DNA from: a virus
Virus record (IMG/VR): IMGVR_UViG_3300043772_001664
Coordinates: 1-24,260 of that record
Length of the DNA stretch: 24,260 nt
Reading direction: 5' to 3' (one strand)
Both the position numbers and the translations under genes were made by a program. The notes beneath the pieces were generated by a model. It was not told the DNA's origin. It saw only the letters and a program-made list of their open reading frames with translations, and did not search any database. Numbering within the stretch: position 1 is the stretch's first letter; each line of letters opens with the position of its first letter. Below are positions 949-17,430 of this stretch, piece after piece.

Positions 949-1302
949 TTATTTTCTAAAATTTATATTGTTTTCTATTAATATTTGTTCAACTATTTTC
1001 CATGATTTTATTCCAACATGCCTTAATTGCAAAAATTTTTTTTTGCTTATTTCATCCGCATATTTGAATAAATAACCATTTTTAACGTATTCATTTCCAT
1101 CCCATTTTTCAGGAATATACAATAAAGCATCAACTATTTTATTGCTTAATTTTTCATTATTTACAAAATCTTCAATTGGAATACGATGTAAATTTTTATG
1201 TACATCTTCTTTTTCTTTTGCTATTTTTTCTTTTAAAAAGTAGCTTTTTAATTCCTCTTTTTCATCATCTGATAATGACTGAATAAATAAATAAACGTTC
1301 AT
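949..1302 (-). CDS. Protein with RNA polymerase alpha-CTD-like domain
   Basis: The product has 117 residues. Residues 1-45 form a charged helix (SDDEKEELKSYFLKEKIAKE). Residues 52-115 resemble the C-terminal domain of bacterial RNA polymerase alpha: LSNKIVDALL at the first helix, then KKKFLQLRHVGIKSWKIVEQIL near the end, matching the family pattern 'LlkiRNlGkkSl.EI...L'. The Gly, Lys and Ser of that helix-hairpin-helix turn are kept (G97, K99, S100). In the host subunit this domain contacts promoter DNA and activators, so a free phage copy could act in transcription takeover or as a regulator; that role is inference. It starts with an ATGA overlap on the preceding stop. The fold match is visual and moderate. 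Confidence 0.6.
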   Translation of the reverse strand: MNVYLFIQSLSDDEKEELKSYFLKEKIAKEKEDVHKNLHRIPIEDFVNNEKLSNKIVDALLYIPEKWDGNEYVKNGYLFKYADEISKKKFLQLRHVGIKSWKIVEQILIENNINFRK

Positions 1303-8375: not shown

Positions 8376-8981
8376 TTAATATAAATCTTTATAATCTACC
8401 CACTTGTTTAATATAGTACTTTGATTAGGTGGATGCAAAATAAGTTTTTCTTTGCTTTTAAACCATTTTAATGAAGGCATTAACCCAGCAATGTAAGTGT
8501 CAATTTGTTTTTCCTCTTTTTCTATTTCTTTTAAAATTATTGGAATAGCTTTTTTATTTACTATGTAACCATAACCACCCCAACTTGCAAAGCATTTATT
8601 TAGCATGATTGAATAATTAACTGTACTTCCATTAGGTGAATAACCACCTAAGTGTATGCCATCCCAATCTTCAGGTAATTCCTTTAAGCAATCATTTAAC
8701 TTATTAATAAAGTCATCTGTAAAATCAACGTCATCTTCTAAAATAAAAACACTCTCTAAATTTTCATTCAAAGAGTGCTGAAGTATTGCCATGTGACTTC
8801 TAAGCGTTGCTATTTCAGTCGGCAATAAAAAACCATTATGTTTTATGCTTTCACTTTCGGTTGCCTTCCACGTTTGCGCTTTAATTCCTGCTCTTTCGGA
8901 ATTTCTTGTGAATTGTTTTCTCCTATCTCCAGAGGATTGTAAGTTAATGCAATAACATTTTCCGATATTTGCTCGAAAGTT
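8376..8981 (-). CDS. GT25-family glycosyltransferase, N-terminus in overlap
   Basis: The frame is open from 9023 to 8376. From 8957 down it reads CYCINLQSSGDRRKQF, then RAGIKAQTWKA, GFLLPTEIATLRSHMAILQ and FILEDDVDF, which is the GT25 (LPS glycosyltransferase) pattern from the first nucleotide-binding strand to the acidic metal motif; the whole domain is about 195 residues, the family norm. There is no ATG, GTG or TTG before a TTG at 8825, and starting there would lose the INL..S.DRR strand. I therefore place coding from 8981, just after a run of nine A where a -1 slip from the preceding gene would enter this frame. A non-AUG start (ATC 8966, ATT 8999), a broken gene, or a homopolymer error are alternatives. 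The likely role is adding a sugar to a phage or cell glycan. Confidence 0.65.
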   Translation of the reverse strand, partial: NFRANIGKCYCINLQSSGDRRKQFTRNSERAGIKAQTWKATESESIKHNGFLLPTEIATLRSHMAILQHSLNENLESVFILEDDVDFTDDFINKLNDCLKELPEDWDGIHLGGYSPNGSTVNYSIMLNKCFASWGGYGYIVNKKAIPIILKEIEKEEKQIDTYIAGLMPSLKWFKSKEKLILHPPNQSTILNKWVDYKDLY

Positions 8982-9175
8982 TTTTTTTCTTCCTGTAATT
9001 GTACATCGTACAAAGGATTCAATTCAATTAAATGGCTTTGCCCTGCAGCAAACATTAAGTTAGCAAAATAATCATTAAAGTTTAAATGATTTACTAAAAC
9101 ATCATTTCCTGATTTATCCTTAGTGATTATATCACAATGAATAAATTCTTGCTTAATTCTAAATTTTAAATTCAT
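8843..9175 (-). CDS. Small phage protein overlapping the GT25 frame
   Basis: The product has 110 residues starting MNLKFRIKQEFIHCDI with a beta-rich N-terminal half (LVNHLNFNDYFANLMFAAG) and an acidic linker, and ending in a basic tail, KRKRGRQPKVKA, of the kind seen at the ends of small phage proteins. No family is recognised. It starts with an ATGA overlap on the methyltransferase gene. Its last ~45 codons (after the A run at 8981-8989) are shared with the GT25 coding sequence in the -1 frame. The N-terminal ~65 residues could therefore be made both as this protein and as the front part of a GT25 fusion. Confidence 0.6.
   Translation of the reverse strand: MNLKFRIKQEFIHCDIITKDKSGNDVLVNHLNFNDYFANLMFAAGQSHLIELNPLYDVQLQEEKKTFEQISENVIALTYNPLEIGENNSQEIPKEQELKRKRGRQPKVKA
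8981..8989 (-). other. Nine-A run, possible -1 ribosomal slip site
   Basis: In the frame of the 110-residue gene the run reads GAA AAA AAA ACT, so A AAA AAA is in the phase of a classical -1 slippery heptamer. A -1 slip gives AAC TTT CGA and continues into the GT25 frame, whose first conserved strand begins about eight codons later. An AGGAAG directly precedes the run. I see no strong downstream hairpin. Frameshifting is an inference. Confidence 0.45.
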
Positions 9176-9744
9176 ACTCTTTTTAAAATAGTTAATCCGT
9201 TATTATTCGTGTATTGTCTGTAAATATACCATTCTTTATTAGCTTCTAAAAATTCATCTACAGCTGGCATCAATCCTTTTTTGTTTTCCGTTTGGTAGTT
9301 TTCCATGATTTCAGGAGTTTGCCAATCAGTCGGTTCATCATTTTGCCCGTAAGTAGTTGTATCGTGTAATACAATATATTTTTTTGCTTTTTTTGCATGT
9401 TTAAACAATTCTTTTTTAAGTTGTGAGTAAATATGTAAAGTGTCAATAAAAAGTAATTCTGTTGGCTCTATATCAATTTTAAGAGTATCTGCTTGAATGA
9501 ACTTCCAATTAGGGTAAACTTTTAAAGCTTCATCAATATTTGGATGAACATGTAAATCTATTCCAACTAAAATACTTGGATTTCTGTACATAAAAGCCCA
9601 TGTACTTACAACAGAACGAACCCCCATTTCTGTAATATGTGAACATTCTTTTGCTAAATCGTAAAGTACTTCCAAATGTTCGTTTATATCACTTGGGGTT
9701 TTACAAGCTTGGTGGTAATTATCTCTAATTAGTAATTGATTCAT
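9172..9744 (-). CDS. Class I SAM methyltransferase-like protein
   Basis: The product has 190 residues in a Rossmann-type order: HITEMGVRSVVSTWAF (36-51) as the SAM-binding strand and loop, ILVGIDLHVHP (58-68) with the acidic residue after strand 2, WKFIQADTLKI, ELLFIDTLHIYSQLKKEL (the 'IDg.H.Y' region of CmcI/MTase_24-type enzymes) and KYIVLHDTTTYG. This resembles sugar or small-molecule O-methyltransferases more than DNA methylases; no DPPY/NPPY motif is present. It lies between an FkbM methyltransferase (ATGA overlap) and the GT25 region, so methylation of a glycan is the natural guess. Substrate is unknown. Confidence 0.65.
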   Translation of the reverse strand: MNQLLIRDNYHQACKTPSDINEHLEVLYDLAKECSHITEMGVRSVVSTWAFMYRNPSILVGIDLHVHPNIDEALKVYPNWKFIQADTLKIDIEPTELLFIDTLHIYSQLKKELFKHAKKAKKYIVLHDTTTYGQNDEPTDWQTPEIMENYQTENKKGLMPAVDEFLEANKEWYIYRQYTNNNGLTILKRV

Positions 9745-10421
9745 ATTGTTGGTTTTCCTATTATATCGCCACTATTTAATATTATTGTTTTATAATTTAT
9801 TTCATTAAAAAATTCATCTATACTTCCTAAACTATTTCCGTATTGATTTAAATTTTCTTCTGAATATTCTGAAAATATTATTGGTTTATATTTTCCTATT
9901 GTTTTTAAACAACCTTTTAATACATTAATTTCATTTCCTTCAGTATCAATTTTAATAACATTAGGAATAATATTATTTTGTTTGCAAAAATAATCAATTG
10001 TAATTACTTCAACTTCTTTTTGAATTGTTTTTTTATGCCATGCAGGAACACCGCCCAACATTGATAATGCTATACAGCCATCAAATTCAACTTCATTAAA
10101 AATTTCTGTTCCAATTACATTAGATATTGCCTTTTTATGTGCAATTGTTTTACTATTATTAAATTTAATATTTTCTATCAATTCAATATAGGCTCTTGAA
10201 GGCTCAAAAGAATAAACCTGTAATGTTGGTAATATTAAATCTAAAAGAGAATAAGAACCAGTACACGCTCCAACATCAATTAAAATTGGATTATTATATT
10301 TGTTTAATTCATTTAAAACAAGTTCCAATAATTCTTTAGAATACACCTCATCATTTTCAAATGAACCTTTGTATTCATGTGTTTTTTCTGTTACTTTTAT
10401 TATTTTATCAAAGTATTTCAT
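9741..10421 (-). CDS. FkbM-family methyltransferase
   Basis: The product has 226 residues with the full FkbM pattern: PILIDVGACTGSYSLL (45-60) for SAM binding, VYSFEPSRAYIELIENI (69-85) with the acidic E73, KKAISNVIGTEIF, the later VITIDYFC (which precedes the core), and NVIKIDTEGNEINVLKGC (~158-175). Family members are O-methyltransferases acting on sugars and polyketides; many sit in surface-polysaccharide or phage glycan loci. It starts inside the end of the DUF5672-like gene (14-nt overlap) and ends with ATGA into the second methyltransferase. A cap-forming O-methylation of a glycan is a reasonable inference. Confidence 0.85.
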   Translation of the reverse strand: MKYFDKIIKVTEKTHEYKGSFENDEVYSKELLELVLNELNKYNNPILIDVGACTGSYSLLDLILPTLQVYSFEPSRAYIELIENIKFNNSKTIAHKKAISNVIGTEIFNEVEFDGCIALSMLGGVPAWHKKTIQKEVEVITIDYFCKQNNIIPNVIKIDTEGNEINVLKGCLKTIGKYKPIIFSEYSEENLNQYGNSLGSIDEFFNEINYKTIILNSGDIIGKPTI

Positions 10422-11013
10422 ATTGCTTTTTTATTTCGTTTACTTGTTCTAAAGGTAAATATTTTTCAACTGCATGATAACCTAAAGTTCCTAAATGAAA
10501 TTGAGTTTCACAGCTAAATTTATTTGCTACGTTTACTGGTGCTAAATTTAATTTTAAAACATTACAGCCCCATGCAAAATAAACATCTTCGTTAATATCG
10601 TTTTCAGGATTGCAAATTTCTAAAACTTTTAACATTGCTGATTTATGCCTAAAACTTAAACCACCATTACCAACAAAAGGATAAAAATCCCATGTTGCAC
10701 CAATGTAATCATATTCGTAAAAATCTTCAATCCCTTCCCTTAATAATCTGCTATCTTCCTGAAATATTAAAACGTTTTCCTCTTTAATTTTATTCCAAAA
10801 GTTTTTTGATTTTAAAAGCTTATTATATCCTCTAATATCATTGACTTCAACAACGTGAAATTCACAGTTAAGCATTTCTTGTAAATGCCTGTTATCTTCA
10901 GAACTAAAAATATAAAGCTTTGTGTATTTAGGTAAGTAAAATAAATGTTCTGTAATTACTTGGTATAAACTTAATCTTCGTGTATCTACTATTACAGCTG
11001 CTAATTCATGCAT
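10408..11013 (-). CDS. DUF5672-family, glycosyltransferase-like protein
   Basis: The product has 201 residues that follow the DUF5672 pattern closely: LAAVIVDTRRL (4-14), KYTKLYIFSSEDN, VLIFQEDSRLL (81-91) with the E-D pair where GT-A enzymes bind metal, YDYIGATWDF (101-110), VGNGGLSFRHKSAML (114-128), INEDVYFAWGC (140-150) and FHLGTLGYHAVEKYLP near the end. The family is GT-A-like and common in glycan clusters; sugar and acceptor are unknown. It is chained to the FkbM gene by a 14-nt overlap. No signal or membrane helix is present, so it acts in the cytoplasm. Confidence 0.8.
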   Translation of the reverse strand: MHELAAVIVDTRRLSLYQVITEHLFYLPKYTKLYIFSSEDNRHLQEMLNCEFHVVEVNDIRGYNKLLKSKNFWNKIKEENVLIFQEDSRLLREGIEDFYEYDYIGATWDFYPFVGNGGLSFRHKSAMLKVLEICNPENDINEDVYFAWGCNVLKLNLAPVNVANKFSCETQFHLGTLGYHAVEKYLPLEQVNEIKKQYEIL

Positions 11014-11081
11014 AATTCAATCGTATATAATTTACATTTCCAAACTTCAAATATCCCATCATAAAAATGATAAACTATCAT
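11001..11081 (-). CDS. Possible 26-residue micro-ORF between glycosyltransferases
   Basis: This frame begins with an ATGA overlap on the stop of the glycosyltransferase gene above it and ends at TAG 13 nt inside the DUF5672-like gene, thereby filling an otherwise unexplained 64-nt gap. It reads MIVYHFYDGIFEVWK and continues CKLYTIELCMN, a composition that looks protein-like. It may be a coupling peptide that carries ribosomes to the next gene, or a remnant of a longer product. It is too short for a family call. Confidence 0.35.
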   Translation of the reverse strand: MIVYHFYDGIFEVWKCKLYTIELCMN

Positions 11082-11818
11082 ATCAAAGTTTTATCAAAGT
11101 TAGGATGTTTTTTTAAAAATTCAGGCAATTTATTTTTATCGTAATTAATCGCATTCCAAAGGTTAATTGAAACTGGATGCAAATCACCAAAATTATTTTC
11201 AGGTGTCCATTTGTAAAATATTTTTTCTAAATAATCTGCTTTAATTTCATTAGCATGACCAAAGCATGAATACTTATATTCCATAACTGCTTTACTTTGT
11301 GCTGTACTAAAATGATAAATGGTTAAAGGACAGTTTAAATTCTGTAATGAATTATGGTTATTTAAATTCTCAATTCTTATTGGTCTAAAACCATCTAAAC
11401 AAATATAATTAAACGACCGCCAAAAATTAAGATAACCTTTTATTCCAAAATACCTTTCAGGATTTGTATAAGCGTATTTTAAAGCTATATCTATTTCAGT
11501 TGGTTCAAATACTTCATCAGCATCAATAGTTAGTATTAAATCAAATCCTTGTGAATATTTTTTTGCTACACTTCTGTGTATATTTTCAGCCCCATAAAAT
11601 TCAGCTTCGTCCCAAATTAATTTATTTCCTAAAACTTCCTCACAAACTTTCCTAATATCTTCAGCTTTATCAGGGCAATCCAAAATAGTTTTAAATCCAT
11701 GCGAAGGCTTGTGAACGTAACTGATAACCATTCCATCTACATTGTCTTTAATTGATAATAAACTTTCTTTTAAATATTCTAAACCATAGTGAATGGTCAT
11801 AAATCCTAAAACTTTCAT
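11078..11818 (-). CDS. Family 2-like glycosyltransferase
   Basis: The product has 246 residues. The start MKVLGFMTIHYGLEYLKESL (1-20) is the first strand and helix of a GT-A fold in which the enzyme 'follows' a nucleotide sugar, and LILTIDADEVFEP (94-106) holds the D-x-D metal motif (D99, D101) followed by E102. Later segments (GIKGYLNFWRSFNYIC, FRPIRIENL, LTIYHFSTAQS) fit the acceptor half seen in GT2-like enzymes of polysaccharide loci. It starts with ATGA on the CgeB-like gene. No membrane helix is present. Donor and acceptor cannot be told from sequence. Confidence 0.75.
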   Translation of the reverse strand: MKVLGFMTIHYGLEYLKESLLSIKDNVDGMVISYVHKPSHGFKTILDCPDKAEDIRKVCEEVLGNKLIWDEAEFYGAENIHRSVAKKYSQGFDLILTIDADEVFEPTEIDIALKYAYTNPERYFGIKGYLNFWRSFNYICLDGFRPIRIENLNNHNSLQNLNCPLTIYHFSTAQSKAVMEYKYSCFGHANEIKADYLEKIFYKWTPENNFGDLHPVSINLWNAINYDKNKLPEFLKKHPNFDKTLI

Positions 11819-12738
11819 TTTACTAATTTTATAATGTTTTCTACTTGATGCTTAAATGTATTTCTATTTAATACTAATTGTTGCCCGTTATAAGCAATTT
11901 GTTTTCTTTCATCTTCATTTTGTAAATAGTATTCAATCTTATTATTTAAATCTTCTATTGAATCAAAATAAACTAAATGCTTATAATTTTCGTAATCCTC
12001 TTCCATTTCTGGATGCTTATAAGACAAACAGAAAGCACCACTTCCCAATATTCTTAAAAGCCTATCTGAATTATAACGAGCTACATTATAATGGCTGCAA
12101 TTAATTGCAATCTTACATCCTTTATACCATTTAGCTTCCTCAAATTGCGAATGGTTTACATTTCCATTACCTTTTAACCAACCACTACCAAATAAACCAA
12201 AGGAACTTAATTTGTTTTTTAAGTTTTCTGCTATTTCAATTCTAAATTTACTAAATGGAAAATAACCAGCGCCATAATTATTAGCCATAAACAATACCTC
12301 ATAATCAGTATAAGCATCGCCAAAACTATTGTAAATGTTTTCATCATAACCAATTTCCAAGTATTCACTATCATATTCTAATTTTTTTAATTCTCTTACA
12401 TCTTCCATGTTACTGAAGGCTGTTAAACTAACAAAAGGTGCAGCATCAACCATCCATTGTGGTGCAGTATTTCTTTTGTCTCCAGTCCAATTAATTACAA
12501 AAGCACCATTACTTTTTAAATAATCAAATGTTTGATTTGCTACTATGCTTTCAGCTTGTATTTGAAAAAATACAACGTCAGGTTTACATTCGTTAAACTT
12601 CTGTAAAATTTTTACATTTAAATGCTGTTCGCCTGTGCTTAATTCAAAATAATTTTCATTCCCTAAAACATCTTTAAATGCTTTTTGAAATCCGTTTTCA
12701 CCTTCGGAAACGCAAAGACCTATGTGTAATAATTTCAT
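11815..12738 (-). CDS. Group 1 (CgeB-like) glycosyltransferase
   Basis: The product has 307 residues with a GT-B-like layout. The N-terminal half has strand patterns LLHIGLCVSEGENGF (3-17), KPDVVFFQIQAE and GAFVINWTGDKR (~78-89). The C-terminal half carries the CgeB/Glyco_trans_1_2 signature: CKIAINCSHYNVARYNSDRL (~210-229), ILGSGAFCLSYKHPEMEEDY (~232-251), HLVYFDSIEDLNNKIEYYL and a closing NGQQLVLNRNTFKHQVENII. These enzymes use nucleotide sugars in glycan assembly. It overlaps the neighbouring genes by 1 and 4 nt. Soluble, cytoplasmic. Confidence 0.8.
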   Translation of the reverse strand: MKLLHIGLCVSEGENGFQKAFKDVLGNENYFELSTGEQHLNVKILQKFNECKPDVVFFQIQAESIVANQTFDYLKSNGAFVINWTGDKRNTAPQWMVDAAPFVSLTAFSNMEDVRELKKLEYDSEYLEIGYDENIYNSFGDAYTDYEVLFMANNYGAGYFPFSKFRIEIAENLKNKLSSFGLFGSGWLKGNGNVNHSQFEEAKWYKGCKIAINCSHYNVARYNSDRLLRILGSGAFCLSYKHPEMEEDYENYKHLVYFDSIEDLNNKIEYYLQNEDERKQIAYNGQQLVLNRNTFKHQVENIIKLVK

Positions 12739-13523
12739 TAGTAATGAGGAAAAATAAAGTGATATGGTTCGCTTATTCTGTCTATTGCTTTATATGTTCT
12801 ATGATTAGATAGGTGCAAATGTATTGAGTGAATTGTTTTTGAAGGATTAAGCACATTGTAACCTGCTTGTTTTAATTCCCAAGCTATTCTATTATCACAT
12901 CCAGCAGTTCCTAAATGGTAATTTCCATCTTGTATTTTTTTTACTGCTCCATTAAATACCCAAGCATCTTGACTATCTTTTCTGTCAAATAAAACAGCAA
13001 GTCCATTTTCTTGGTAATCCCAGCGACTTAAAGCGTAACAGTCATCCTCTCTCATAAAACGAGAAAACAAAATTGTTTCATTGAAATAAATATCACTATT
13101 TGCAATCACATTAATACAGTCAGGATAATCGTTTGTTAATTCAAATATTTGTTTATATGTTAATCGTTCTGTTAAGCTAAAAACCTTATTGAAATGCTTT
13201 AATGAATGGTTTAATTTAGAACATGCATCAATTTCCTTTTGCCTTTCAATATTATCTTGTTGGTAGTATTGAACAAATAAATTAAGTGGCTTAAATTCAT
13301 ATTCACCATTTACCGCTTTTCTAAAATAGTTTTGAGCTTCCAACTTTATATTATTTTCTTTTATCCAATTAGTCAAAAGCATAACACCTTCTGTTACACA
13401 TGATGAACAATTAATATTTACTGCATGATTGCATAAAGTTTTGCATAATTCAAACAAATCATTTAATCTTTGTTTTGGATTATCTAAAACAGTTTTAACC
13501 TTATTAATTAATTCACTATTCAT
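12738..13523 (-). CDS. Glycosyltransferase-like protein, two domains
   Basis: The product has 261 residues. The N-terminal ~75 residues (with CSSC at 39-42) form a small separate helical domain. From about residue 80 a GT-A-like domain follows: NLFVQYYQ (81-88), INVIANSDIYF (137-147) with an S-D-x-Y metal-type motif, ALSRWDY (164-170), DSQDAWVF (183-190), GTAGCDNRIAWELKQAGY (205-222) and IHLHLSNHRTY (234-244). This order matches a glycosyltransferase group known from phages, bacteria and eukaryotic proteins, in which the GCDNR and H.H.SN motifs are conserved. It overlaps the HAD gene by 8 nt and the next GT by 1 nt. The specific sugar is unknown. Confidence 0.7.
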   Translation of the reverse strand: MNSELINKVKTVLDNPKQRLNDLFELCKTLCNHAVNINCSSCVTEGVMLLTNWIKENNIKLEAQNYFRKAVNGEYEFKPLNLFVQYYQQDNIERQKEIDACSKLNHSLKHFNKVFSLTERLTYKQIFELTNDYPDCINVIANSDIYFNETILFSRFMREDDCYALSRWDYQENGLAVLFDRKDSQDAWVFNGAVKKIQDGNYHLGTAGCDNRIAWELKQAGYNVLNPSKTIHSIHLHLSNHRTYKAIDRISEPYHFIFPHY

Positions 13524-17241: not shown

Positions 17242-17430
17242 ATGTCAAAAAAACCAAAGAATTATAAAGTATATCAAGTGTGTTTAGGCTCAACTACTTT
17301 GCATAAATTTGAATGTGATTTAGTAGATAGTGAACAAAGAGCTTCAGCAAAAATTCGTGATATATTAAAAGATTATTATAAAGACAAAGAACCTTTCGGT
17401 TGGAAGGATTATGTTAAAAAGTTAAAGTGA
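17242..17430 (+). CDS. Small basic protein, only gene on the plus strand
   Basis: The product has 62 residues, MSKKPKNYKVYQVCLGSTTL to KEPFGWKDYVKKLK, with a Lys/Tyr-rich N-terminus, two Cys, and a helical half around SEQRASAKIRDILKDYYKD. Coding is supported because the frame exactly fills the 244-bp gap between the tape measure and protease genes, starts with an A-rich leader, has a natural composition, and ends 9 nt inside the tape measure stop. No family is recognised. It is convergent with the tape measure and divergent from the protease. It could be a small regulator or lysogeny/superinfection gene; nothing proves that. Confidence 0.55.
   Translation: MSKKPKNYKVYQVCLGSTTLHKFECDLVDSEQRASAKIRDILKDYYKDKEPFGWKDYVKKLK

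Follow-up and report, generated by a model that had tools for sequence, protein, structure and literature searches.

A GT25 glycosyltransferase frame without a start codon of its own in a tailed phage, and its predicted expression through a -1 shift at an invariant run of nine A

The stretch of DNA analysed here (hereafter the window) comes from a tailed phage and is an IMG/VR virus record of 24.3 kb (24,260 nucleotides), in which matches to PHROG families mark a portal protein, a Clp-type head maturation protease and a tape measure protein. The nearest named relatives of the portal protein (~21% identity) belong mostly to phages of Bacteroides and related hosts, Cellulophaga and Tenacibaculum phages included. 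The minus strand carries all the genes discussed below. A gene for a protein of 110 amino acids occupies 9175-8843. The portal gene (8335-6962; phrog_11226, E 6.7e-42) lies directly downstream and was used as synteny anchor, and between the two runs a frame coding for a GT25 glycosyltransferase. The upstream genes (9172-13523, minus strand) include an FkbM methyltransferase, a DUF5672 protein and a Glyco_trans_1_2 protein together with others that have no Pfam match; they probably serve sugar modification, and for this reason the GT25 probably belongs to a glycan-modification block. One ATG-initiated ORF of 62 amino acids (17242-17430, plus strand), located between the protease and tape measure genes, runs opposite to its neighbours.

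The 110-aa gene, which we take as frame 0, starts with an ATG at 9175 and stops at 8843, and its product is a small protein conserved in the alignments that ends KRKRGRQPKVKA. The original prediction had this frame continuing to an end of its own, and all 21 related contigs described below keep the frame-0 stop. The Pfam search gave no family for this protein and no homologs were found in the phage records searched; its PHROG matches were dropped, being weak (E 0.06-0.6) and inconsistent between relatives. AlphaFold models of the small protein and of the GT25 were both poor (pLDDT ~50, 51 for the GT25), and the top Foldseek matches of the latter, sought as a sign of a GT-A fold of the LgtB/COLGALT1 type, were galactosyltransferases/COLGALT1 at E values above 0.001.

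The GT25 coding region lies in the -1 frame of this gene (8981-8376, minus strand; 201 aa after the predicted slip, NFRANIGKCYC...DYKDLY and a stop), reading from 8981 NFRANIGKCYCINLQSSGDRRKQF...AGIKAQTWKA...GFLLPTEIATLRSH. It is the single GT25 of the window and matches PF01755 (Glyco_transf_25) with E 1.6e-12 and 48.2 bits against a curated cut-off of 24; the GT25 protein of the relative L032 gives E 1.7e-12. Its N-terminus had been described as devoid of ATG, GTG or TTG, and actually none of these codons was found, in the window or in any relative, from the conserved strand (CYCINLQSS.DRR) upstream to the nearest stop. The first canonical start in this frame is a TTG at 8825, past some 50 residues of the GT25 N-terminus. 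Initiation at this TTG or at the next ATG was rejected, neither codon being conserved: the former is TTA in L047-L051 and the latter AAG in other relatives. The 50-residue piece of GT25 encoded upstream of that point, within the overlap of both frames, is enough by itself to match PF01755 positions 3-43 (E 0.006). Furthermore, in L084, a phage GT25 with an ordinary ATG that starts MSIINQIFDRVFVINL, this ATG coincides with the lysines encoded by the A-run described below (aligned by eye on VFVINL/CYCINL). Both facts indicate that what follows the A-run is a complete GT25 domain for which only a start is missing. No close relative of this GT25 could be confirmed by tblastn in the bacterial genome collection searched.

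Both frames meet at a run of exactly nine A (A9, 8988-8980), phased in frame 0 as GA A.AAA.AAA.ACT. It contains the slippery heptamer A AAA AAA (8987-8981), which is correctly phased within the gene pair and invariant among relatives. The conserved strand had been placed about 25 nt beyond, and C9 of the GT25 frame begins 24 nt past the slip codon. A -1 shift at A9 would produce a fusion of 266 aa (9175-8379, minus strand), made of 65 aa of frame 0 and the 201 aa of the GT25, with EEKKNFR as the predicted junction peptide and EEKKNFRANIGK as the stretch around it. With such a slip, the 135 nt that follow (8980-8846) would encode two different conserved sequences, the GT25 N-terminus and the C-terminus of the small protein, TFEQISENVIAL...KVKA. 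Other long A-runs of the same phages erode: an A8 is kept in 4 of 15 and an A7 in 3 of 15, against 15 of 15 for the A9 of the slip site. There is a second A9 in the window (1036-1044, minus strand), within a gene of 117 aa, and it looks ordinary since the run is absent from the sole relative in which this gene was found (98% identical).

Scanning IMG/VR at the protein and DNA level recovered 21 contigs sharing the arrangement. With the window included, A9 was found in 22 of 22 sequences, and in every one of the related contigs both frames are open and the overlap measures exactly 135 nt, with the 110-aa protein falling to ~75% identity. The comparison of the junction in related phages, proposed in the original prediction, gave no A10 and no GT25 with an ordinary start (0/21 each), the GT25 N-terminal frame being kept in 21/21. 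A junction scan tolerant to run length retrieved 20 contigs, all of them A9, with neither A8 nor A10. In several divergent relatives the GT25 frame is shut by a stop a few codons before the run (stop-GKK/NF in L032, stop-KSKK/NF in L029, stop-RKK/NF in L044 and L047-L051), which places the transition between frames at the A-run itself. The next relatives of the portal (21-24% identity) had neither the 110-aa gene nor the GT25 in the stretches fetched, and the arrangement is thus known from one phage clade of ~75-100% amino acid identity. Within this clade the portal protein occurs in two lengths, 457 and 403 aa; the C-terminal regions differ, but both forms end in identical residues (NGIQTTNN). 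In contig L050 a short deletion near the end of the GT25 gene has taken its stop together with some of the spacer before the portal gene, and this GT25 ends DYKE at a new in-frame stop, two residues shorter.

The overlap is also distinct in composition. A GC content of about 43% had been counted by hand for 8843-8896 and the computed value is 42.6%, attained by ~4% of the 54-nt stretches in the window; the whole overlap has 38.5%, whereas the single-coded flanks have 25.1% and 29.5%. Parsimony counts of substitutions were made on a tree built from 17-19 distinct sequences, and the neutral rates were those of synonymous sites in the part of the GT25 region that is coded in one frame only. Upstream of the run, frame 0 accumulated 86 synonymous changes for 73 expected. 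At the three codons of the A-run (Glu-Lys-Lys) there were none for 2.2 expected, and none for 6.4 at the four codons after it, that is 0 vs 8.6 over the seven junction codons (Poisson 1.8e-4), while the lowest ratio in windows of the same length upstream was about 5 vs 8.0. The deficit extends over the overlap, with 6 changes vs 28 expected in its first 17 codons and 20 vs 44 in the remaining 27. Synonymous changes of the GT25 frame are as expected outside the overlap (213 vs 203) and fall inside it to 0 vs 35 and then to 30 vs 48, indicating that frame 0 is selected up to its own end. Stops arising in the overlap numbered 0 in frame 0, 1 in the -1 frame and 12 in the +1 frame, for ~28-34 expected in each under neutrality; the single one of the -1 frame is an intermediate of the reconstruction, found in no real sequence. 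Substitutions and stops together indicate that both proteins are maintained, including the 45-residue tail of frame 0. The synonymous-rate analysis suggested in the original prediction therefore detects purifying selection on each frame, with its onset at the A-run, and this onset can be seen in the substitution pattern at single-codon resolution. The codon immediately after the run is a TTC, rare (29 vs 177 TTT) yet invariant; with TTT in its place, the GT25 frame would run into a UGA two codons past the slip. The frame-0 tail is probably overprinted and the younger of the two sequences, since matches to a widespread family were obtained for the GT25 frame and none for the tail.

The first third of the overlap (8928-8980) is nearly invariant and could form two weak hairpins, UUUCGA/UCGGAA (8978-8960) and AAUGU/GCAUU (8959-8946). 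The first of them begins 2 nt past the heptamer and is invariant (folding z -0.7 to -0.9), and neither RNA folding nor consensus folding of the related sequences found a significant or covarying structure downstream of the run. No conserved element similar to a Shine-Dalgarno is visible, given that the sequence upstream of the run varies. This block was at first read as an RNA signal, which we do not claim, because the two protein constraints predict most of its invariance and only the missing GT25-synonymous changes exceed expectation. In the first 51 nt (8980-8930, minus strand) there are 0 of these, vs ~34-35 under neutrality and ~7.5 once frame-0 constraint is considered (34 x 0.22, the average nonsynonymous ratio of frame 0).

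The anatomy of the locus, the invariance of A9 and the selection on both frames from A9 onward can be read directly from the alignments, and from them we infer the occurrence, efficiency and type of the shift. A chance arrangement is excluded by its conservation in the 21 related contigs and by the per-codon substitution counts. We consider it very likely that a programmed -1 shift at A9 yields the 110-aa protein plus a 266-aa fusion with a complete GT25 domain. In most expression events the 110-aa gene would be read in frame 0 to its own stop, and a fraction would shift by -1 at A9 and be read in the -1 frame from there on, either by ribosome re-pairing on A AAA AAA or by the RNA polymerase adding one A. 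The slipped events would give the 266-aa protein, with residues 1-65 of the small protein ahead of the GT25 domain. The original prediction of a short protein and a longer GT25 fusion produced by ribosomal frameshifting is thus supported in its -1 shift, by A9 and by the conservation of both frames. The slip may be ribosomal or transcriptional: a run of nine A is also a known type of RNA polymerase slip site, and no conserved Shine-Dalgarno-like element or significant structure was found. A_AAA_AAA is an established -1 slip motif that is common in IS elements (PMC4066793), and transcriptional slippage or realignment is known at A-runs of more than seven (PMC3711429).

Programmed transcriptional realignment, in which the polymerase adds one A at A9 and the A10 mRNA is translated in the ordinary way into the fusion, is a version of the same explanation where the slipping machine alone differs. 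It is a serious possibility, if on balance somewhat improbable. A9 is fully conserved and longer than the ~7-8 A or T expected of such sites, no ribosomal stimulator is evident, and poly-A is a proven slip site of RNA polymerase, for example in tssM with 11 A (PMC4256274), runs of more than 7 A being used in this way elsewhere (PMC3711429). Against it, the constraint of the first 51 nt after A9 goes beyond the average of the proteins and could be a translational signal, although such absence of change may come from an RNA signal or just from a strict peptide. If instead the GT25 were translated separately, by internal initiation at a non-AUG codon (ATC or ATT) just past the run, the locus would be a plain gene overlap. 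GT25 proteins can begin near the A-run, as in L084, and there is an ATC or ATT at codon 5 or 6 of the GT25 frame in all relatives. However, the candidate codons shift between sequences (AAT-ATC in most, ATT-ATC, and ATT-GTC in L049-L051) and the invariance of A9 is left without a reason. The four codons between A9 and the candidate also lack the frame-0 synonymous changes expected there, among them that from TTC to TTT, which would matter only to ribosomes that read the GT25 frame before they reach the candidate codon; a hidden RNA constraint could account for this too. Taken together, we regard internal initiation as unlikely.

Classic contingency loci include homopolymer tracts located in genes for surface sugars. 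A9 could likewise be the "off" state of a replication-slippage switch and genomes with A10 would make the fusion, a kind of poly-A/T phase variation discussed in PMC3711429. Such a switch is very improbable at this locus, with no variation of run length among the contigs of the tolerant scan and with selection acting past the run on the C-terminus of frame 0, for which there would be no need in an "off" frame. The window is a metagenome contig and the site is a homopolymer, and so a sequencing or assembly error that hides a true A10 and a single ordinary ORF has to be considered, but A9, open frames and constant overlap in 21 further contigs argue strongly against it. Besides, a true A10 would not explain why stops and nonsynonymous changes are avoided in the conserved C-terminus of frame 0, and a decayed gene is not compatible with the nonsynonymous ratio of ~0.10 shown by the GT25; we give practically no credit to error or decay.

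A programmed -1 shift, the reading that we prefer, has several known counterparts. The frameshifts known from dnaX (A AAA AAG) and from transposases of the IS1/IS3 family (A AAA AAA/G) share with this locus a poly-A heptamer in A AAA AAA phase, the -1 direction and short and long products with a common N-terminus. Here, in contrast, the shift would lead to a glycosyltransferase domain, there is no clear stimulator, and the short product has its own conserved tail of 45 aa overlapping the GT25 for 135 nt. In tailed phages, the tail chaperones are the best-known case of a conserved frameshift. The lambda G/GT type of tail assembly chaperone likewise gives a short protein and a longer fusion by a conserved frameshift, but other genes are involved and the extension here is a complete enzyme rather than a tail chaperone domain. 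Citrobacter rodentium tssM (11 A) and Thermus dnaX have in common with this locus a long A-run, here a predicted slip site, and two length variants; both variants of tssM are needed (PMC4256274). Unlike tssM, the run has 9 A instead of 11, a long dual-coding region follows the slip, and slippage is predicted from sequence. Finally, the GT25 has the N-terminal strand INL..DRR, the LEDDV motif and the colinear match of its family (PF01755; LgtB-like transferases, COLGALT1), and it differs in having no start codon of its own and being predicted to exist only as a fusion. Poly-A frameshifts and phage frameshift fusions are already known; for a GT25 of phages, no frameshift was described in the literature that we searched, the coverage of which is incomplete.

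The first 65 residues likely bring the enzyme to its acceptor, and the 110-aa form would be produced in excess. A wider and rather speculative proposal, which we think has less than an even chance of being right, is that the GT25 is made solely as a frameshift product, fused to a small phage protein with an alternative tail overprinted on the enzyme N-terminus. The slip site would then fix the ratio of the bare small protein (possibly a virion or target-binding protein) to the enzyme-tagged form, which would glycosylate the binding partner of the small protein. In any case, slipping at this site would lead to a complete enzyme, part of what is probably a glycan-modification block, and 135 nt evidently serve two proteins. 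Gene callers would give a truncated GT25 from the internal TTG, or nothing, and similar enzymes may therefore be hidden elsewhere. The locus is small, making a direct test of which machine slips at A9 feasible. In addition, a GT25 domain was found behind another domain in a single ORF (1-1488 of LR756501.1) of a large uncultured phage. The domain ahead of this GT25 resembles, compared by eye only, the protein encoded at 12738-13523 of the window (LSRW...SQDAW...GCDN...NPS).
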